In this document: piece after piece, positions 30,289 to 39,260 of the stretch | Layout of the letters: each line of letters opens with the position of its first letter | How positions within the stretch are numbered: position 1 is the stretch's first letter | Assembly: GCA_020859845.1 (NCBI GenBank) | Contig: JAJBVL010000084.1 | Span: forward strand, 1 to 47,310 | DNA from: Bacteroidales bacterium | Lineage (GTDB): Bacteria > Bacteroidota > Bacteroidia > Bacteroidales > Muribaculaceae | Reading direction: 5' to 3' | DNA: 47,310 nucleotides | Made by a program: the position numbers and the translations under genes | Notes under the pieces: model-generated | Told to the model about the DNA's origin: nothing | The model's input: the letters and a program-made list of their open reading frames with translations, nothing else | Databases searched by the model: none

Positions 30289-31452
30289 ATGGCACATCAA
30301 CCTGTAGTGCAGGAACTTATAGACATGATTGCCGCCAATGGCTGGCAGGATAAGTTCCAAGCTGTAATCGACAAGACACAGCAACTCAACGTAGAAGGCA
30401 TGGAAGACCTCAAGACACTCGAAGACTGGTATGACTGGCTCGACAAGTTCCTCGTTTGGGTACCTGTCGAGGATAATTATGGCACACTGGTCTACGATCA
30501 TCTTGTAAAGTTCTACTACATCTTCGACCAGCAGCCTGTCTTCAGTCTGATGACCCCCGAGGTTCCTACTCCAGAACAACCTAAAAAGCTTACCCAGCTC
30601 TCCGAGTGGATTGTGAAGTACATCCGTGAGGAAGGTAAGTTCCTTGACACTCCTGCTTCTCTTACCCCCGAATCGCTCGCTACGTTCTATGCTTCTCCAG
30701 CATACCACATGGGTGAGTATGAATGTCCTCACGGCGGTTGGAAGACCTTCAACGAATGGTTTGCACGTCACACCAAACCGAGCTTCCGTCCTATCGCCGC
30801 TATCGAAGATGATACCGTCATCGTAGCCGGTGCCGACGCCACATTTGATGGCCAATGGGAAATCCGCGCCGACTCTGGCGTCACCATCAAGGGCCTTCAC
30901 TGGAAGATCTCTGAGCTCCTCGATGGCAGCCCCTATGCCAATGAGTTCCTCGGTGGTATGTGGACCCACTCCTTCCTCAACACCAGCGATTACCACCGTC
31001 AGCACGCTCCTGTAGGCGGTAAGATTGTAGAGGCACGTGTAATCCAAGGTGCCGAATACGTAGAGGTAGAATGCGAGCCTGTCCCCGGCGATCCTAACGG
31101 CAAGCACAGAGCTGTGGGCAAACGTCAGTATCAGGCTTGGTGCCCCGACCACGCCGGCTTCGAATTCCTACAGACCCGTGGTCTTATCATGATTGACAAT
31201 CCTATCGTAGGTCTTGTAGCTATCATGCCTATCGGTATGAGCAACGTATCGTCGGTGATTATCACGGCCGAGGTTGGTCGTGAGGTACAGAAGGGCGAGG
31301 AAGTAAGCTACTTCCAGTTTGGTGGCTCCGACTATGTAATGCTGTTCCAGAATAAGGCCAACGTAAGCTTCACCGCACAGCCTGGCAACCACTACAAGGT
31401 TGGCACCCGCATCGCTGAGGCTTATCCTGTAGGCTATCGCAAACGTCACTAA
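30289..31452 (+). CDS. PSD-like pyruvoyl-dependent decarboxylase, paralogue 1
   Basis: The 387-residue soluble protein has an N-terminal alpha-helical PSDC-like domain (about 1-130) and a phosphatidylserine-decarboxylase catalytic domain (about 140-387). Catalytic features are FNEWFAR (155-160 region), FDG with the candidate catalytic D187, YHRQHAP with H236 and H239, and FGGSD, where G346-S347 should be the self-cleavage site producing a ~346-residue beta chain and a ~41-residue pyruvoyl alpha chain. No membrane anchor is seen, unlike lipid-acting PSD. The fungal tryptophan decarboxylase PsiD has this two-domain layout, so an amino-acid substrate is plausible, though unproven. Codons are CGT/GTA/GGT-rich, suggesting strong expression. 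It is first of three tandem paralogues followed by two transporters. Confidence 0.88.
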   Translation: MAHQPVVQELIDMIAANGWQDKFQAVIDKTQQLNVEGMEDLKTLEDWYDWLDKFLVWVPVEDNYGTLVYDHLVKFYYIFDQQPVFSLMTPEVPTPEQPKKLTQLSEWIVKYIREEGKFLDTPASLTPESLATFYASPAYHMGEYECPHGGWKTFNEWFARHTKPSFRPIAAIEDDTVIVAGADATFDGQWEIRADSGVTIKGLHWKISELLDGSPYANEFLGGMWTHSFLNTSDYHRQHAPVGGKIVEARVIQGAEYVEVECEPVPGDPNGKHRAVGKRQYQAWCPDHAGFEFLQTRGLIMIDNPIVGLVAIMPIGMSNVSSVIITAEVGREVQKGEEVSYFQFGGSDYVMLFQNKANVSFTAQPGNHYKVGTRIAEAYPVGYRKRH

Positions 31453-31539
31453 TCTTCTCTCTGCACGAAGACATAGACGTCCGAATGTGAGTATTATTCA
31501 AGTATATATTCTTAACACCTAACATATTACTATAATATT

Positions 31540-32697
31540 ATGGCAAAACAGCATCAACCCATGGTACAGGAGCTTATCGCAATGATAGCTCAGAATGGGT
31601 GGCAAGAGATCTTTGAGAAGGGCATCCAAAACTGCATTTCACAGAATGTAGTGACCTTGGATGACATTCACTGCCTCGACGACTGGTTTGATTGGCTAGA
31701 TGCTCAGCTCACCTGGATACCAGTGGAAAACAACTATGGCACAGAGGTCTACAACCACCTGGTAAAGTTCTCCTTCATCGTTGACCAGGAGCCTATCAAG
31801 AGCCTCCAGAACAAGGAAGCGCCTGCAGTGCCCCAGCCACAGCTCACCCCGTTTAGCGCTTGGATCGACCGTTTCTTCCACGCTCAGGGTGCATTCCTTG
31901 ACACTCCACAGAGTATCAATCCCGAGAGTCTTGCTACCTTTGCTGATAGCCCCAACTATCATGAAGACGAATATGAGGAGCCACGTGGCGGCTGGAAGAC
32001 CTTCAACGAATGGTTTGCCCGCTACACCAAGCCTGGCTACCGTCCTATAGCCGCACAAGATGATGATACTATCATCACCATGGCAGCCGATGCCACCTGG
32101 GCCGGACAATGGGAAATCCGCGCCGACTCTGGCGTCACCGTAAAGGGTCTCGACTGGAAGATTGCCGAGCTGCTCGAAGGCAGCCCCTACAAGGATGAAT
32201 TCCTGGGTGGCAACTTCGTTCACGCCTTCCTTAATACCAGCGACTACCACCGTCAGCACGCTCCTATCAGCGGTAAGGTTATCGAAGCACGTGTAATCCA
32301 AGGTTGCGAGTATGTAAACGTCATCGCCATTCCCGATCCCGAGAATCCTGGCCGCAACAAGCTGGTAAAGCAGCGTGTGCTTGAGGCTCCTGACAATGCC
32401 GGCTATGAGTTCATGCAGACCCGTGGCTTGATCATCATCGACAATCCTTATGTAGGTAAAGTCGCTGTCCTCCCAATGGGTATGGGTCAGGTATCGTCGG
32501 TAATTCTTACCGCCGAGGTGGGCCGTACACTCCGCAAGGGCGAAGAGATCAGCTACTTCCAGTTTGGTGGCTCCGACATCGTGATGGTATTCCAGAACCA
32601 GAGCAATATCAGCTTCACGGCCCAGCCTGGTGTTCACTATAAGTTTGGCACTCGCATAGGTAAAGCCTATCCTGTAATCCCCAAATTTCGTGGATAG
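31540..32697 (+). CDS. PSD-like pyruvoyl-dependent decarboxylase, paralogue 2
   Basis: The 385-residue protein has the same PSDC-like N-terminal and catalytic domains as its neighbours. It retains FNEWFAR, YHRQHAP and FGGSD, with cleavage predicted at G344-S345 and a 41-residue alpha chain. It differs from paralogue 1 near the active-site region (GSPYKDEFLGGNFVHAF against GSPYANEFLGGMWTHSF) and near the alpha chain (DIVMVFQNQSN against DYVMLFQNKAN), which may reflect a different substrate. The 87-nt gap from paralogue 1 holds an A/T-rich leader ending in ATTATGGC but lacks the CAACTATT element. Its N terminus starts with KQHQPMVQELIAMI, parallel to the other two. No transmembrane helix. Confidence 0.88.
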   Translation: MAKQHQPMVQELIAMIAQNGWQEIFEKGIQNCISQNVVTLDDIHCLDDWFDWLDAQLTWIPVENNYGTEVYNHLVKFSFIVDQEPIKSLQNKEAPAVPQPQLTPFSAWIDRFFHAQGAFLDTPQSINPESLATFADSPNYHEDEYEEPRGGWKTFNEWFARYTKPGYRPIAAQDDDTIITMAADATWAGQWEIRADSGVTVKGLDWKIAELLEGSPYKDEFLGGNFVHAFLNTSDYHRQHAPISGKVIEARVIQGCEYVNVIAIPDPENPGRNKLVKQRVLEAPDNAGYEFMQTRGLIIIDNPYVGKVAVLPMGMGQVSSVILTAEVGRTLRKGEEISYFQFGGSDIVMVFQNQSNISFTAQPGVHYKFGTRIGKAYPVIPKFRG

Positions 32698-32791
32698 GTG
32701 AGGGTCTATAAACAAAAGTAGACTACCCCAACAACTTCAACAACCTCCAATCAACTATTAACAACTACTAAGAAAAACCCTCCTTAAAGAT

Positions 32792-33943
32792 ATGGCAACA
32801 ACACATCAACCTATCGTACAGGACCTTATAGACATGATCCAGGCCAATGGCTGGCAGGAAAAGTTTGAGCAGGCCCTTAAGAAGTGCCAAAGCTACAACG
32901 TAGCAGCTTTTGCCGACATCAAGACCCTCGACGACTACTTTGACTGGCTTGACAAGCAGCTCACTTGGATTCCTGTTGAGAATCGCTATGGTGAGGTAGT
33001 GCTCGACCATGTATGTAAGTTCTACTTCATCCTCGACCAGGAGCCTGTAAAGAGCCTCCAGAACGCCGTGGTGCCTCACGATGAGATGCAGCCTCTGACC
33101 GAGCTCTCCAAGTGGATGAAGAGATACATCATCGAGTTTGGTGCATTCATGGACACCCCAGCATCTATCACCCCCGAGAGCGTACAGACCTTCTACGACT
33201 GCCCCGAATACCACATGGACGAGTATATCCAGCCTCACGGAGGATGGCGTACCTACAACCAGCTCTTTGCCCGTCGTGCAAAACCTGGCTATCGTCCTGT
33301 AGCCGACATCTGCAACGACCGCGTCATCACCTCGCCTGCCGATGCCACATTCGACGGACAGTGGGAGATCCGCGCTGATTCAGGTGTCACCATCAAGGGC
33401 CTCCACTGGAAGATTGAGGAGCTGCTCGAAGGCAGCCCCTACAAGGACGAGTTCCTGGGTGGCAACTGGATGCACTCCTTCCTCAACACCACCGACTATC
33501 ACCGTCAGCACGCCCCTGTAGGTGGCCGTGTACTTGAAGCCCGCAACATTCAGGGCACAGTATACCTTCAGGTGACTGCCGAGCCTATCCCTGGCGACCC
33601 CAACGGGGCTCACAAGATTGTAGGCAAGCGAGTATTCGGTGCTCCTGATGATCCTGGCTATGAGTTCATGCAGACCCGTGGCTTGATCGTCCTCGAAAGC
33701 TCAATCGGCAAGGTAGCCGTGCTGCCTATGGGTATGGCACAGGTATCATCCGTAATCATCACCGCCGAGGAAGGCCGCACCCTCCAGAAGGGCGACGAGA
33801 TCAGCTACTTCCAGTTTGGTGGCTCCGACATCGTGATGGTATTCCAGAACCAGAGCAACGTCAGCTTCACTGCCCAGCCAGGCGTACACTACAAGTATGG
33901 TACCCGCATCGCCGAGGCCTATCCTGTACGTCGCCGCAAGTAA
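32792..33943 (+). CDS. PSD-like pyruvoyl-dependent decarboxylase, paralogue 3
   Basis: The 383-residue third copy keeps YHRQHAP and FGGSD (G344-S345; predicted 39-residue alpha chain). The catalytic-domain entry motif is altered to YNQLFAR instead of FNEWFAR. It resembles paralogue 2 around the cleavage site and paralogue 1 at the N terminus (HQPIVQDLIDMI). It lies 94 nt after paralogue 2, with a CAACTATT element (32752-32759) and a CCTCCTTAA segment in the gap. A hairpin (33952-33970) and a GC-rich terminator-like hairpin (33986-34020) follow. The tail is basic (PVRRRK). Substrate unknown; soluble and cytosolic. Confidence 0.88.
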   Translation: MATTHQPIVQDLIDMIQANGWQEKFEQALKKCQSYNVAAFADIKTLDDYFDWLDKQLTWIPVENRYGEVVLDHVCKFYFILDQEPVKSLQNAVVPHDEMQPLTELSKWMKRYIIEFGAFMDTPASITPESVQTFYDCPEYHMDEYIQPHGGWRTYNQLFARRAKPGYRPVADICNDRVITSPADATFDGQWEIRADSGVTIKGLHWKIEELLEGSPYKDEFLGGNWMHSFLNTTDYHRQHAPVGGRVLEARNIQGTVYLQVTAEPIPGDPNGAHKIVGKRVFGAPDDPGYEFMQTRGLIVLESSIGKVAVLPMGMAQVSSVIITAEEGRTLQKGDEISYFQFGGSDIVMVFQNQSNVSFTAQPGVHYKYGTRIAEAYPVRRRK

Positions 33944-33985
33944 ACCCCTGCCAGTGGCTCCATGCCACTGATACATAAGCATACT

Positions 33986-34020
33986 GGGGCCGGGGGCAGC
34001 CAAGCCCTCGGCCCCTTCTC
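33986..34020 (+). terminator. GC-rich hairpin between paralogue 3 and the antiporter
   Basis: GGGGCCGGGGGC (33986-33997) pairs with GCCCTCGGCCCC (34004-34015) with one G-U pair around a 6-nt loop, followed by TTCTCT. A second stem (CAGTGGC/GCCACTG, 33952-33970) lies before it. With only a weak T-tract, it may reduce rather than stop read-through or stabilise the upstream mRNA end. Confidence 0.55.
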
Positions 34021-34111
34021 TATAAATATTGGGTCTCTTACACAACAACACTCAACTATTTAACTCTCCTTCTCTATTTAATCTCACCCTTATCATTCAA
34101 CTATTACTGTT
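34021..34111 (+). promoter_or_regulatory. Leader of the antiporter gene with two CAACTATT elements
   Basis: CAACTATT occurs at 34053-34060 and again at 34098-34105, the latter just before the ATG at 34112. The stretch is pyrimidine-rich (CTCTCCTTCTCT). A promoter is likely here but no clean TAnnTTTG was found. Confidence 0.45.
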
Positions 34112-35764
34112 ATGGCAACACCTACAAAACCTGCTGGGAAACCGGCAGCCAAGGCAGCAGCGGCCCCAAAGCCTGCTGTCAATTCAAAAGCCGGCACAGT
34201 GTCGATGATGATGATGGCCGTGCTGTCAATCACTGCCATTCTGAGCCTCCGTGGTCTATCCTCCCAGGCTGAGTTTGGTTGGACCTCGATATTCTGGTAT
34301 CTCTTTGCAGCAGTCTTCTTCCTCATCCCATTCTCTCTTGTATGTGCCGAGCTGGCCTCTACGTGGACCAAGAGCGGTGGGCTCTTCCGCTGGTGTGCTG
34401 AGGCGTTCGGTATGCGTTGGGGATGGGTGGCTATGTTCCTGGAATGGATGACGGTGACCATTTGGTTCCCCTCGGTGCTTATGTTTGCCGCGGTGGCCTT
34501 GGCCTATGTCTTCTGGCCCGAGAGCTTTGATGCCACGCTGTCCAACAACCGTATCTACACCCTTATCCTTGTGCTCGCCGTCTACTGGCTGAGTACCTTC
34601 AACTGTTTCCGAGGCATGAAGTCGGCCAACAAGCTGTCGTCGATTGGCGGTATCTGCGGCACGATTATTCCTGGAGCTATCCTTATCATCCTCGGTATCA
34701 TCTACGTATGTATGGGCAAGCCCATCGACATCACTCCTCATCAGCCCTTCTGGCCCGACTTCACTAAATTCTCCACCTTCGTGCTTGCCGCGAGCTGCTT
34801 CCTGTTCTATGGAGGTATGGAGATGAACGCCGTCCACGTCCCGCTGATGAAAAATCCTGCCAAGGAGTTCCCACAGTCGGTACTCATCGCTGTGATTGTA
34901 ATCCTCGTGGTGTTTATTGGCGGCACACTCGCTATCGCCTTCGTCACACCTCAGAAGGATATCAACCTGCTGGCCTCGCTGCTGACTGCCTACAATAACC
35001 TCTTCGCGGCCCTACACTGTGAGTGGCTTGGCCATGTGATGGCCGTCTTTATCACCTTCGGTGTTATCGGTCAGGTATCAGTGATTATCGCTGGTCCTTC
35101 CACCGGTATCTTCGTAGTAGGTAAGAGCGGCTATCTCCCACTGTCGCTTCAGAAGACCAACAAGAACGGCATCCAGACCCCTATCCTTTGGATACAAGGC
35201 ATCATCGTGTCGATTCTGTCAATCGTGCTGGTAGTCTTGCCTTCGGTTGAGTCGGCTTACCAGATTTTGAGCCAGATGGCCACCATCTTCTACCTCCTGC
35301 TGGTAATCATCATCTTCTTGGCATTCTGGCAGCTGCGCCGCACAGAGCCTAAGGTAAAGCGTGGTTTCCGTGTGCCTGGTGGTGCTTTTGGCAAGTGGCT
35401 TGTCACCATCATCGGTCTCTTCGGTGCTATCTTCGCTTTGATCCTTAGCTACGTTCCACCGAGCCAGATCACTACCGGCTCCCCCGGCACGTATGTAGGT
35501 ATACTTATCGCAGGCACCATTATCCTCTGCGCTATCCCCTTCATCGTCTTTGCATGCCGTAAGCCCTACTGGCGCGACCCCAACACCGACTTCCAGCCCT
35601 TTGACTGGCAGATCGAGGGTCGTCGTCCCGACCAGATCTCCAAGTGGCCGGCAGGCTATCAGCCTACAGAGGCTCAGATAGAAGCTATCATCAAAGGCAA
35701 AGATGTAGCGGCGGCCAAGGCCCGTACTGCCCATCAAGAGCAAGAACAAGAAGAAGACTCTTGA
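34112..35764 (+). CDS. APC-family amino-acid antiporter, GadC-like
   Basis: The 550-residue protein has about 12 transmembrane helices after a 30-residue Ala/Lys/Pro-rich tail. The amino acid-polyamine-organocation pattern is seen in helix 1 (ILSLRGLSSQAEFGW), ELASTWTKSGGLFRW, and a helix 6-like segment (FYGGMEMNAVHV). A long hydrophilic C-terminal tail (about 490-550; WRDPNTDFQPFDWQIEGRRP) resembles the C-terminal plug of the glutamate/GABA antiporter GadC. Such antiporters exchange an external amino acid for the internal decarboxylation product. Directly downstream of three decarboxylases, it is a natural partner. Exact substrates cannot be read from sequence. Confidence 0.88.
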   Translation: MATPTKPAGKPAAKAAAAPKPAVNSKAGTVSMMMMAVLSITAILSLRGLSSQAEFGWTSIFWYLFAAVFFLIPFSLVCAELASTWTKSGGLFRWCAEAFGMRWGWVAMFLEWMTVTIWFPSVLMFAAVALAYVFWPESFDATLSNNRIYTLILVLAVYWLSTFNCFRGMKSANKLSSIGGICGTIIPGAILIILGIIYVCMGKPIDITPHQPFWPDFTKFSTFVLAASCFLFYGGMEMNAVHVPLMKNPAKEFPQSVLIAVIVILVVFIGGTLAIAFVTPQKDINLLASLLTAYNNLFAALHCEWLGHVMAVFITFGVIGQVSVIIAGPSTGIFVVGKSGYLPLSLQKTNKNGIQTPILWIQGIIVSILSIVLVVLPSVESAYQILSQMATIFYLLLVIIIFLAFWQLRRTEPKVKRGFRVPGGAFGKWLVTIIGLFGAIFALILSYVPPSQITTGSPGTYVGILIAGTIILCAIPFIVFACRKPYWRDPNTDFQPFDWQIEGRRPDQISKWPAGYQPTEAQIEAIIKGKDVAAAKARTAHQEQEQEEDS

Positions 35765-35803
35765 CAAGGCCGCCCATACAGTGCCATTAGATTGAATTGA
35801 AAT

Positions 35804-35866
35804 AAAAGTGGCGACCCCGAGCCCGGACATCCAACGGTGGTCGCAACCCGAGGGTCGCCACTTTTT
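35804..35866 (+). terminator. Long terminator-like hairpin with an alternative pairing
   Basis: AAAAGTGGCGACCC (35804-35817) pairs perfectly over 14 bp with 35852-35865, ending in a T-run. The 34-nt loop contains a second GGTCGC (35839-35844) that could pair with the same left arm, so two mutually exclusive folds exist. It separates the antiporter and MFS genes. Confidence 0.7.
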
Positions 35867-35944
35867 CCTCCCTTAGTATCCAACTATTTACATTCCACCT
35901 ACTCTCTACCTCCCTTATAACCTCCTTAAGCTGCCACCACCGTC
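35867..35944 (+). promoter_or_regulatory. Leader of the MFS gene with CAACTATT element
   Basis: CAACTATT (35881-35888) and a CCTCCTTAA segment (near 35927-35935) recur here as in the leader of paralogue 3. This suggests joint control of the MFS gene with the decarboxylases. No clear -7 box. Confidence 0.4.
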
Positions 35945-37288
35945 ATGCAAGTCAAAACAGGAAAGGGCACCATCCCATTGGCTACACTGATAGCCATCTG
36001 GTCAATTTCGCTCACCGTCAATCTGCCGGGCCTCGCCATCACGCCTATGCTCGACAATTTGAAGGCCATCTTTAGCGACACTACCGAGTTGGAGGTTCAG
36101 CTTCTCACCGTATTACCCAATCTTCTCATCATCCCCTTCGTATTGCTTGCAGGCAAGCTGTCGCTCTCCAAGAGCAAGATAGCGCTTGTAGTTTGGGCCT
36201 TGGTAGCCTATCTGGTGGCAGGTCTGCTCTATTTCTTCGCTAAGTCGATGGTGGCGTTGATTATCATCAGTTGTCTTCTGGGGTGTGGTTGCGGCCTGCT
36301 GATTCCTTTGGCCGCCGGTCTGCTCTCCGACACGTTTGTCGGTAAGTATCGTATGAAGCAACTCGGCATCAAATCGGGTATTAGTAATATCGCCCTCGTG
36401 GCTGCCACCTACATTGTGGGCTGGCTCACCGAGAGCCACAACTGGCACCTCCCCTTCCTCGTCTATACCATCCCTCTTATCCCGCTGGTATTGACTCCCT
36501 TCCTCAAGAAAATTCCTTACAACGACCTATATCCCCAAGAGCCTACAGCCGCTGCCAAGGCTTATACTAAAGCTACGGCGCCAAAAGGCGAGGTGATACG
36601 TGATGGTTTCTACGTGAAGCGCATCTGGCAATTGATCTTTGTCTACTTCTTTGTATGCTACTGGGCATTGATCGTTTCCTACTATATGCCCTTCTTGGCC
36701 GCCGCCCACCATATCTCCACCTCGCAGGTAGGCCTGATCACGTCGCTCTTCTTCCTGGCTATCTTCCTGCCGGGCACCACGCTCCCCTACGTCATCCGGA
36801 TGCTGAAAGGCGCCACGCTGACCATCTGTAGTTTCTTGATGTTGGGCGGATTGGCTCTGATAGCTTTTATCCCAGCCATGTGGAGCTACACTATCGGCGC
36901 CATCCTAATTGGTCTGGGCTACGGTGTGTTCCAGCCTGTCATCTACGATAAGGCCACCGAGACTGTGCTCAGCGAGCGTAAGGCCACCTTGGCTCTGGCG
37001 TTTGTGTTGGCAGCCAACTATCTGTCGATCTCCGTCACCCCCTTCATCGTTGACGGCATCGGCGACCTGCTCCACATCCACTCCAACCAGTTCCCCTTCA
37101 TCCTCAATCTTATCCTCGGCGCTGCCTTCACCGTATGGGTAATCCTTGGGCGCAACACGTTTGCCTTCACCATCAAGGATGAATACTACGCCTCGGGGTC
37201 CGACACTTCCGAAGCCAACTCCACGCCGGCTCCGGCTCCGCAAGCCTCGACCACCGACAACACTCCTACCCCTCCCGCCAGCAAATAA
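35945..37288 (+). CDS. MFS transporter
   Basis: The 447-residue protein has 12 predicted transmembrane helices in two halves split by a loop (about 190-220), with the MFS-like loop LAGKLSLSKSKI after helix 2 and GLLSDTFVGKYRMKQLGIKSG after helix 4. The C-terminal tail (about 415-447) is Ser/Thr/Pro/Ala-rich. It belongs to the drug/metabolite transporter side of MFS, with no diagnostic substrate motif. Its shared leader element and position suggest it imports the substrate or exports the product of the decarboxylases. Confidence 0.88.
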   Translation: MQVKTGKGTIPLATLIAIWSISLTVNLPGLAITPMLDNLKAIFSDTTELEVQLLTVLPNLLIIPFVLLAGKLSLSKSKIALVVWALVAYLVAGLLYFFAKSMVALIIISCLLGCGCGLLIPLAAGLLSDTFVGKYRMKQLGIKSGISNIALVAATYIVGWLTESHNWHLPFLVYTIPLIPLVLTPFLKKIPYNDLYPQEPTAAAKAYTKATAPKGEVIRDGFYVKRIWQLIFVYFFVCYWALIVSYYMPFLAAAHHISTSQVGLITSLFFLAIFLPGTTLPYVIRMLKGATLTICSFLMLGGLALIAFIPAMWSYTIGAILIGLGYGVFQPVIYDKATETVLSERKATLALAFVLAANYLSISVTPFIVDGIGDLLHIHSNQFPFILNLILGAAFTVWVILGRNTFAFTIKDEYYASGSDTSEANSTPAPAPQASTTDNTPTPPASK

Positions 37289-37371: not shown

Positions 37372-38049
37372 TTAATACGTATTGTAATGTACACGCTCCG
37401 GACGCCACTTGTCCTTGGGGCGTGAGGGCGAATCGGGATGCCCTATCACCACTACCGCCAATGGAATAATTGTCGATGGCAGACCCAGTAGCTTTTGGAT
37501 ACGCTCCACGCGGTCTTGCATAGGATACACGCCTGTCCATACTGCTCCGAGGCCCAGCGACTGTGACGCCAAAAGTATATTCTCAGTAGCTGCCGACACA
37601 TCCTGCACCCAGAAGGGCTGTGCTTCCCCCTCAAAGGCCAGCGACAAGTCGCCACACGTCACGATGGCCAGAGGAGCCTGCGCGGCCATCTTCATATACT
37701 GCTCCTGGTCGGCAATGGTCTGCAGTGTAGAACGGTCGGTGACGACTACAAACTGCCACGGCTGCTTGTTGCCAGCCGTGGGCGCCGCCATCGCCGCACG
37801 CAGTAGCATCTCTTGATCTTCCTTGCTTACAGCCTCATCCGTGTAGCTGCGCACGCTTGTGCGCGCCATTATGGTCTGCAGCGTAGGGTTGAGGCTATTC
37901 ACCATTGGCGTTGCTGTAGTCGTTGCCTCTACCATGGTTGATGTCTCTTCCTCCTCGCACGAAGGCTCCTTCTGGCTCCTTACGAGCGCTATCGACAGCA
38001 GCACCAGCGCCGCAGCCAGCAAAATATTAAGTATCCTTGAGTAGTTCAT
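37372..38049 (-). CDS. Membrane-anchored nitroreductase-family protein
   Basis: The 225-residue protein has an N-terminal hydrophobic anchor or signal (about 6-24), an acidic Thr-rich linker, and a nitroreductase fold (about 52-220). Family features are RTSVRSYTDEAV (FMN phosphate-binding Arg/Ser), AAPTAGNKQPWQFVVV, and SLGLGAVWTGVYP. Nitroreductases use FMN and normally NAD(P)H in the cytosol; the anchor suggests this one works outside the inner membrane, needing another electron donor. The FMN-binding/4Fe-4S membrane protein encoded upstream on the same strand is a candidate. Substrate unknown. Confidence 0.85.
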   Translation of the reverse strand: MNYSRILNILLAAALVLLSIALVRSQKEPSCEEEETSTMVEATTTATPMVNSLNPTLQTIMARTSVRSYTDEAVSKEDQEMLLRAAMAAPTAGNKQPWQFVVVTDRSTLQTIADQEQYMKMAAQAPLAIVTCGDLSLAFEGEAQPFWVQDVSAATENILLASQSLGLGAVWTGVYPMQDRVERIQKLLGLPSTIIPLAVVVIGHPDSPSRPKDKWRPERVHYNTY

Positions 38050-38080
38050 AATCTTTATTCTTTAATCCTTTACCCCTTAC

Positions 38081-38178
38081 CTTTTTACTCTTGCCTTTTG
38101 ACTTTTTACTTTTGACTTTTTACTTTTGCCTTTTGACTTTTTACTTTTGCCTTTTTACTCTTGCCTTTTGCCTTATCT
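38081..38178 (-). repeat. About 14 heptad repeats, TAAAAAG/TCAAAAG/GCAAAAG
   Basis: Read on the minus strand, 7-bp units TAAAAAG, TCAAAAG and GCAAAAG alternate for about 14 units between the stop codon of the FMN-binding gene and the nitroreductase gene. The same three units occur four times at 20316-20343, in the same orientation relative to transcription. Confidence 0.85.
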
Positions 38179-39260
38179 CATTTCCTCTCCTCCGCCACCT
38201 TAAACAGCGACCCCGTGGGACACACAAACCGGCAGAAAGGCCTCGGGACAAACAGACTCAACACCACAAACGCCGCGGCCACCACTACCACTATCCACGA
38301 GGCTTCGCCCGGCTTAAACGCCGAGAAAATCTCATTGGCCATCCATTCGCTCCAGACGCCCAGCCATAGCAGCAACATCAACACACACCAGAGAGCCACC
38401 CTGGCACGGTCGAGCCATTTCACTAAGGCGGGATTCATCCTCAGTTTCTTCTTACAGCAACGTCCTGCCAGCTCCTGCAGCGACCCAAAGGGACATATCT
38501 GCAGGCAATAATAGTTGGGGCGTCCGAAGAGGGGAAATATGAATGCGGCCACCAGCATAATCACCGCCGGCAGCATCAGCCATACGTTGAGCCCCTCGGC
38601 AAGAAACTTCACCATCAGCGAATACGACAGAAACTGCCCTGTCCAAAAGCCCAGCACGCCCACGTTGAGCAGTTGCTGGAGCAAGCGCAGCGGCTTGGCG
38701 CTCTTGAAGAGAGGCACTATCGTAGAGAAGATGACCACCAGCAGCGAACACATGAAGCCCGTTGTGGTCACCTCCGAATAGTCGACTGCAGCGCCGATGC
38801 TCGCGCCTTGACTTTGGGCATACTTCAACCCAGCCTCCACGTTGGCTATCAGCGCTGTGGAGCTATAGGTGGCGCCAGTGACTCCATCTGCTTTCACGCG
38901 TAGCGCCTCGTCGACTGTCAGTCCTTGCCAGCGACTCAACAGCCCGCTCGAAATAGCTTTATTGAAGAAGGTAGGGGACTCAGCGTTGGGGAGCGCACGG
39001 ATGGTATCAATGCGCCCATCGGTTATCACAATCTCCACGGGGACACGCCCACCAAAGCCTTGCGTAGCCACATCAAGTTCGGAGGTGTTGATAATGGTCT
39101 GCCCATCTTTCTCCTCCACCACAGCCTCCGTGGTGGCCTCTATGGAGCGTCCAAAGAGACGCTTGCTGTTGACCACCGCCACGGCCATCATCAGCCCGAA
39201 ACACACCACGAGCATGGCCGCGCCGCGAAGCCACTGCAATCTGTCTGCGTTGGATGCCAT
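38178..39260 (-). CDS. FMN-binding/4Fe-4S membrane protein (NosR/RnfG-like)
   Basis: The 360-residue protein has a transmembrane helix (about 13-30) and an extracytoplasmic FMN-binding domain (about 55-150) with DGVTGATYSS, where T131 is the predicted ApbE-type covalent flavinylation site. About four more helices follow. Cysteine motifs of polyferredoxin type occur at CLQICPFGS and CRFVCPTGS in the membrane part. It likely carries electrons to extracytoplasmic partners. It starts in a TAATG overlap with the stop of the upstream secreted protein gene, so the two are coupled, and the nitroreductase follows. Confidence 0.87.
   Translation of the reverse strand: MASNADRLQWLRGAAMLVVCFGLMMAVAVVNSKRLFGRSIEATTEAVVEEKDGQTIINTSELDVATQGFGGRVPVEIVITDGRIDTIRALPNAESPTFFNKAISSGLLSRWQGLTVDEALRVKADGVTGATYSSTALIANVEAGLKYAQSQGASIGAAVDYSEVTTTGFMCSLLVVIFSTIVPLFKSAKPLRLLQQLLNVGVLGFWTGQFLSYSLMVKFLAEGLNVWLMLPAVIMLVAAFIFPLFGRPNYYCLQICPFGSLQELAGRCCKKKLRMNPALVKWLDRARVALWCVLMLLLWLGVWSEWMANEIFSAFKPGEASWIVVVVAAAFVVLSLFVPRPFCRFVCPTGSLFKVAEERK

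Follow-up and report, generated by a model that had tools for sequence, protein, structure and literature searches.

In the available sections of a 2025 gut survey (PMC12484125), the pyruvoyl amino acid decarboxylases are named as three groups, the histidine, aspartate, and arginine types, and the word "phosphatidylserine" has 0 occurrences in the main text of that survey. In the excerpted text of PMC12915299, phosphatidylserine decarboxylase (PSD) is named only as an annotated non-amino-acid decarboxylase. Fungal PsiD is independent of pyridoxal phosphate (PLP) and related to the PSDs, according to the available part of PMC12099186. Here we describe a locus in a stretch of 47,310 nucleotides (the window; contig JAJBVL010000084.1 of assembly GCA_020859845.1, from a Bacteroidales bacterium of the Muribaculaceae) in which three tandem PSD-fold genes (PSD1, PSD2, and PSD3) are followed by genes for a GadC-like antiporter and a major facilitator superfamily (MFS) transporter. 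Among the matches listed in a search of open-licence PubMed Central articles, none concerned a PSD-fold enzyme linked to an amino acid antiporter, and the locus most likely encodes a decarboxylation/antiport system whose enzyme fold the literature search did not find described in that role. The PSD/antiporter locus is a real, conserved gene module. From the comparison of genes and genomes, we consider it likely that PSD1 to PSD3 are pyruvoyl amino acid decarboxylases that feed an amino acid/amine antiporter as a proton-consuming virtual pump, with a neutral substrate, and not glutamate, as the likely one.

The distribution of the module was examined in a family sample of 198 genomes, taken to be Muribaculaceae. 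PSD matches at E ≤ 1e-30 occurred in 40 genomes from 13 of 30 genera, and 38 genomes held the close clade (E ≤ 1e-100); G140 and G041, with matches at about 1e-47 and 1e-43, were scored as being without the PSD clade. Antiporters were classed by their score to the TIGR03813 model, under or over 650 bits. Matches were over the cut-off in 25 genomes and under it in 41, with both kinds in two, and G108 (636 bits over 385 of 479 positions, sharing its contig with a GadB) was excluded from both classes. A sub-cutoff GadC-like antiporter was present in all 38 PSD-clade genomes, compared with 3 of the 160 others (Fisher p = 1.3e-37, a value that overstates independence because the sampled genomes are related), and chance linkage of PSD and antiporter was rejected on this co-occurrence. 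In 36 of the 37 other genomes, the antiporter gene lies directly 3' of the PSD gene on the same strand, the match ends being 51 to 340 bp apart; with the window included, the two are adjacent in 37 of 38 PSD genomes. Conserved PSD-antiporter linkage, the absence of which an earlier sequence-only reading of this DNA had named as evidence against itself, is therefore present. The outer neighbors of the pair vary between loci. An MFS gene is near the PSD gene in 18 of the 37 other loci, and a gene for a porin-like protein (Porin_2 barely over its cut-off, DcaP under) in 12, both counts being lower bounds where contigs end. The MFS protein, which had been taken as part of the system, does stand in the window but looks optional elsewhere, and it was downgraded as a core component. 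Tandem PSD copies were found in 6 of the 37 other loci. The earlier reading suggested that three copies could mean three substrates; among the 37 PSD genomes besides that of the window, 31 have a single PSD match. Among the loci of the named collection that lie outside the 198-genome set, L007 has the pair, and L009 and L012 are without the antiporter.

That the PSD-fold proteins decarboxylate the antiporter substrate is best argued from a PLP decarboxylase of the PF00282 family, here called c4, which exchanges with them or joins them. In three genomes with the antiporter and no PSD (G076, G096, and G106), c4 lies directly upstream of the antiporter gene. It is also near the PSD gene in 5 of the 37 loci, where c4, PSD, and antiporter occur all together, and in L010 and L011, outside the genome set, c4 and the antiporter stand beside the PSD gene on the opposite strand. 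One antiporter type thus has beside it either a PSD-fold protein or an unrelated PLP decarboxylase, or both together. A PLP decarboxylase has that place in the three PSD-less antiporter genomes, so the position of the PSD-fold enzyme seems to be a slot for a decarboxylase. Among solved structures, c4 is nearest to entries that bear the name "Decarboxylase" (7cwx and others), which we take to be tyrosine decarboxylases. Its lysine motif is DFHK, not SGHK as in GadB, its longest local alignment with GadB of E. coli is at 22% over 332 residues, and DFHK matches none of the lysine motifs in the excerpted table of PMC12484125. On Plesiomonas and Polymorphobacter plasmids, c4-type decarboxylases that are 54 to 58% identical to the c4 of locus L059 pair with antiporters that have Q304 and I308 (E. 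coli GadC numbering throughout) but retain Tyr382. Plasmid p1 of Plesiomonas shigelloides (L145, L118) carries a c4-type decarboxylase, two GadC-like antiporters, and a PsiD-like gene about 26 kb away.

The best model for the window antiporter is the glutamine/gamma-aminobutyrate (GABA) antiporter TIGR03813, to which it scores 614.8 bits, under the equivalog cut-off of 650. The sub-cutoff class spans 570 to 624 bits, and the relative in L010 reaches 649, so the cut-off line is not sharp. In a tree of 59 antiporters, the 54 window-type sequences (PSD-linked, c4-linked, and ten without an adjoining PSD, c4, or GadB) form one clade (support, 98) apart from four GadB-linked GadC sequences (100), these four being all that the tree included of the 25 over-cutoff antiporters. 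Position 308 in the window clade is Leu in 29, Ile in 18 (the window copy among them), Val in 6, and Asn in 1, with Trp in 0 of 54; position 304 is Gln in all 54, and position 382 is Val in 49 of them. Trp308 and Tyr382 are both retained by each of the four GadB-linked copies. According to the available text of PMC4970712, Trp308 of GadC is the counterpart of Trp293 in AdiC, and the W308A substitution abolishes glutamate transport by E. coli GadC. The predicted GadC-like antiporter is thus an APC protein as proposed, but it belongs to a separate subfamily without Trp308. For this reason it is probably not a glutamate/GABA exchanger, and its substrate has probably changed to a neutral one, and a larger side chain could be accommodated. 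Ten window-type antiporters (L124 to L133) have no adjoining PSD, c4, or GadB gene; all are in PSD-bearing genomes, nine as second copies and one as the sole copy of G115.

These observations also bear on the proposal that a PSD-fold glutamate decarboxylase has replaced GadB and converts glutamate to GABA for an ordinary GadC. A GadB-type PF00282 gene was found in 32 of the 198 genomes, including all 25 with an over-cutoff antiporter, and PF00282 over its cut-off was not found in 30 of the 38 PSD genomes. The two enzymes are seldom together, with GadB in 2 of 38 PSD genomes versus 30 of 160 others (p = 0.049), and a replacement would fit both this pattern and the best-scoring model of the antiporter. 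However, G167 and G194 keep both the PSD and the GadB systems, c4, the other enzyme that partners the antiporter, is unlike GadB in its lysine motif and overall similarity, and the antiporters form a clade of their own (against the four GadB-linked copies sampled) in which Gln304 is constant and the Trp required for glutamate transport by E. coli GadC is absent. Replacement of GadB is accordingly unlikely in our view, and glutamate was downgraded as the substrate.

The module in the window consists of five open reading frames (ORFs) on the + strand between positions 30289 and 37288. All are open, and the three tandem, intact paralogues followed by the antiporter and MFS genes are arranged as the sequence-only reading had described them:

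30289..31452, + strand: PSD1, 387 aa, PF02666; predicted pyruvoyl amino acid decarboxylase
31540..32697, + strand: PSD2, 385 aa, PF02666; paralogue, 64% identical to PSD1, with WAG replacing FDG
32792..33943, + strand: PSD3, 383 aa, PF02666; paralogue, 65-66% identical to PSD1, with an AlphaFold2 model
33986..34015, + strand: GC-rich hairpin of 12 pairs between PSD3 and the antiporter gene; consensus match only
34112..35764, + strand: GadC-like APC antiporter of a separate subfamily (Q304, I308, V382); TIGR03813, 614.8 bits
35945..37288, + strand: MFS transporter, PF07690; frequent but optional neighbor

The hairpin is possibly an attenuator or partial terminator that sets the ratio of enzyme to antiporter; terminator-like sites in the region number 3, versus 5.8 expected from shuffles. 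Directly downstream of the module, on the - strand (37372-39260), are genes for a nitroreductase-family protein and an FMN_bind/Fer4_5 protein.

PSD1 to PSD3 are 64 to 66% identical in pairwise comparisons and match PF02666 domain-wide with 139 to 149 bits (curated cut-off, 22; E = 2e-40 to 2e-43). Intact FGGSD, YHRQHAP, and FDG motifs had been reported for each protein. The first two are present in all three, but FDG is found in PSD1 and PSD3 only, with WAG at the same place in PSD2. The residues aligned to D90, to both His of YHRQH (H144 and H147), and to the cleavage Ser of E. coli Psd, which we take to be the residues of self-cleavage and catalysis, are kept in all three window proteins and, among 50 other family sequences, in 47, 50, 48, and 50, respectively. 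The Asp following the cleavage Ser (GGSD) is invariant in 56 of 56 aligned proteins; GGST is found in its place in PsiD-like sequences and in two housekeeping-type ones. PSD1 to PSD3 are predicted to be soluble and cytoplasmic. Their maximum 19-residue Kyte-Doolittle means are 1.4 to 1.9, compared with 2.8 for the housekeeping PSD of the same genome and 1.55 for E. coli Psd. The earlier claim that membrane anchors are lacking agrees with the absence of a strong hydrophobic segment, but the same holds for E. coli Psd, so that this property does not separate the two.

In the AlphaFold2 model of PSD3 (mean predicted local distance difference test score, 86.0; predicted template modeling score, 0.82), the protein is predicted to be helical to about residue 160 and to have a beta-rich catalytic domain after that. 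A PSDC-like N-terminal domain, and with it the two-domain layout of PsiD, had been proposed. The Pfam PSDC domain (PF12588) had no match in the window proteins even at E ≤ 5. However, hhalign of the N-terminal part alone with PSDC-bearing PsiD-like proteins gave 74.4% over 61 columns, versus 0.1 to 1.1% for five column-shuffled controls, and a full-length profile alignment of whole window-type proteins with PsiD-like proteins gave 100%. "PSDC-like" as applied to these N termini is thus a remote profile similarity only.

The closest solved structures by sequence are those of PsiD (8zia, 2.5e-17; 8x4q, 3.4e-17), followed by 9jer (6.9e-11) and E. coli PSD (2e-9). The catalytic domains of 88 sequences out of 94 (duplicate trimmed rows removed) were placed in a maximum-likelihood tree over 205 columns, in which PsiD and 9jer were entered as partial segments only. 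The window clade falls in an FGGSD group (73.3/94), beside a PsiD-like group (99.8/100) to which the fungal tryptophan decarboxylase belongs; PSD1 to PSD3 are not inside the PsiD-like clade, which excludes the FGGSD group. The union of the two groups is apart from five housekeeping-type sequences with support of 53.8/90. A placement among the housekeeping lipid PSDs, which had been named in advance as an outcome that would count against an amino acid substrate, was not found, the tree separating the two with modest support, and PSD1 to PSD3 score under every NCBIfam PSD equivalog cut-off. The duplications that gave rise to the three copies may be old, since the tree, with weak support, places PSD1 and PSD2 beside copies of other genomes and PSD3 elsewhere.

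Relatives were carried by 24 of 395 wider-phylum genomes, the genome of the window included. Loci L090 to L104 (genus g89, same phylum, perhaps Chlorobium-like) encode FGGSD PSD-like proteins of ~430 aa whose N termini resemble signal peptides by eye; an antiporter of the window type is absent nearby, and an exported PSD-fold enzyme is possible there. L106 (G202:C1) encodes a predicted FGGSD protein of 585 aa with a long N-terminal extension, its start codon being provisional.

The assembly that contains the window is 97.9% complete in 112 contigs. It encodes a separate housekeeping PSD of 221 aa (G000:C15), and with that function separately encoded, lipid decarboxylation was rejected as the main role of PSD1 to PSD3. 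No match to PF00282, the PLP group-II decarboxylases, was found in the assembly, and its one TIGR03813 match is the window antiporter. Should this antiporter be served by a dedicated decarboxylase of these types, the PSD-fold enzymes are those available.

In the proposed mechanism, PSD1 to PSD3 would self-cleave in the cytoplasm before Ser345 (PSD3 numbering) to form a pyruvoyl group, and the pyruvoyl enzymes would then decarboxylate a free amino acid, using up a proton. The adjacent antiporter would import the amino acid and export the amine in a GadB/GadC-like manner, and together the decarboxylase and antiporter would act as a virtual proton pump that raises the internal pH and/or the membrane potential. 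The substrate would most likely be neutral (aliphatic or aromatic, with neither favored) and not glutamate. The MFS protein, and the porin-like protein in some relatives, may help to move substrate or amine. The conserved pairing with one APC antiporter that marks a decarboxylase/antiporter pump was found, and the PSD-fold protein would be its decarboxylase. As first put forward, the decarboxylation/antiport proposal keeps its separation of these PSDs from the housekeeping group and its antiporter linkage, but the antiporter is probably not of the glutamate/GABA type and the MFS partner looks optional.

PsiD-like genes also lie beside antiporter genes on plasmids. On plasmid pUPC1 of Enterobacter cancerogenus, the gene for a PsiD-like protein (L115; 1.9e-76 to 9jer, 2.5e-75 to PsiD 8x4q) is 29 bp downstream of a TIGR00905 antiporter gene, and on Photobacterium damselae plasmids a PsiD-like gene is 97 bp downstream of another TIGR00905 antiporter gene. 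Eleven neighborhoods were examined among 23 long-match plasmid records, with an amino acid antiporter in 3, none in 7, and no annotation in 1; the plasmid gene tables are incomplete, so absence there is weak evidence. We see about an even chance that a class of PSD-fold pyruvoyl decarboxylases was recruited at least two times as a proton-pump enzyme (in Bacteroidales with a GadC-like antiporter and on gammaproteobacterial plasmids with a basic amino acid antiporter), with tandem paralogues widening the range of substrates, and that it is an unrecognized gut source of amines.

Several observations weigh against the amino acid decarboxylase reading. The sampled genomes are related to one another, and hydropathy cannot set PSD1 to PSD3 apart from E. 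coli Psd, which is membrane associated yet reaches only 1.55. The split from the housekeeping PSDs is only modestly supported on its 205 columns, the Muribaculaceae PSD clade itself is weakly supported (11.1/79), and the D90 position is Asp as in housekeeping PSDs and Glu in 11 of 11 bacterial PsiD-like sequences. Linkage also has exceptions. PSD and antiporter are both present but unlinked in G115, additional unlinked PSD copies are carried by G168 and G176, and the PSD of L009 has no antiporter within its 17 kb. The linked genes are near 0 of 20 wider-phylum FGGSD relatives (20 of 23 fetched, several on short contigs). On plasmids, an amino acid antiporter is found in just 3 of the 10 annotated PsiD-like neighborhoods, and two of those three are Photobacterium plasmids with identical protein accessions.

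Some of these points would suit PSD1 to PSD3 acting on phosphatidylserine or on another lipid or lipid precursor, with the transporter as a neighbor for another shared need. The catalytic domain is PF02666, the Asp at the D90 position is of the housekeeping and not the PsiD-like kind, and the FGGSD relatives elsewhere are unlinked. However, the genome already has its housekeeping PSD, co-inheritance with an amino acid antiporter is near absolute, and a PLP decarboxylase takes the same place in three genomes, and we regard a lipid substrate as quite improbable. Synthesis of an amine for a modified lipid or natural product, with the antiporter supplying the amino acid, is very improbable, for although fungal PsiD serves a biosynthetic pathway (available text of PMC12099186) and the 20 FGGSD relatives elsewhere are without antiporter neighbors, no widely recurring neighbor cluster beyond MFS, porin-like, and c4 genes was found with crude gene calls and clusters at ≥30% identity.

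Muribaculaceae are common gut bacteria, and the candidate pathway is present in 38 of the 198 sampled genomes. Annotated plasmid relatives are labeled "phosphatidylserine decarboxylase family protein" and "putative glutamine/gamma-aminobutyrate antiporter GadC," and under such labels, surveys that go by gene name could overlook a pathway that produces amines and consumes protons. If the amino acid decarboxylase reading is true, a new fold would join the short list of pyruvoyl amino acid decarboxylases, and two unrelated enzymes could serve one antiporter type.

The locus shares with GadB/GadC of E. coli and Bacteroidales a decarboxylase-type gene beside a GadC-family APC antiporter and a presumed virtual proton pump. 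In contrast to GadB, the window enzyme is of the PSD fold and is expected to use a pyruvoyl group, not PLP, and its antiporter is in a separate clade without Trp308. The system of a c4-type PLP decarboxylase and a GadC-like antiporter has the antiporter subtype and the position in common with the window, whereas the c4 enzyme is of another protein family and cofactor (PF00282). A PSD-family domain, an N-terminal domain, and a GGS cleavage site are shared with the fungal L-tryptophan decarboxylase PsiD (8x4q, 8zia) and the bacterial PsiD-like proteins, but the window proteins belong to a sister group with FGGSD in place of GGST, have Asp and not Glu at the D90 position, and lack a Pfam PSDC match. 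Housekeeping PSDs (E. coli Psd and the 221-aa protein of the same genome) share PF02666 and the Asp, His, His, and Ser residues, and E. coli Psd is likewise without a strong hydrophobic segment; the window proteins differ in their length of about 385 aa, their modeled helical N-terminal domain, their multiple copies, and their antiporter linkage. With the pyruvoyl histidine, aspartate, and arginine decarboxylases, the window enzymes would have in common a pyruvoyl cofactor that acts on a free amino acid.

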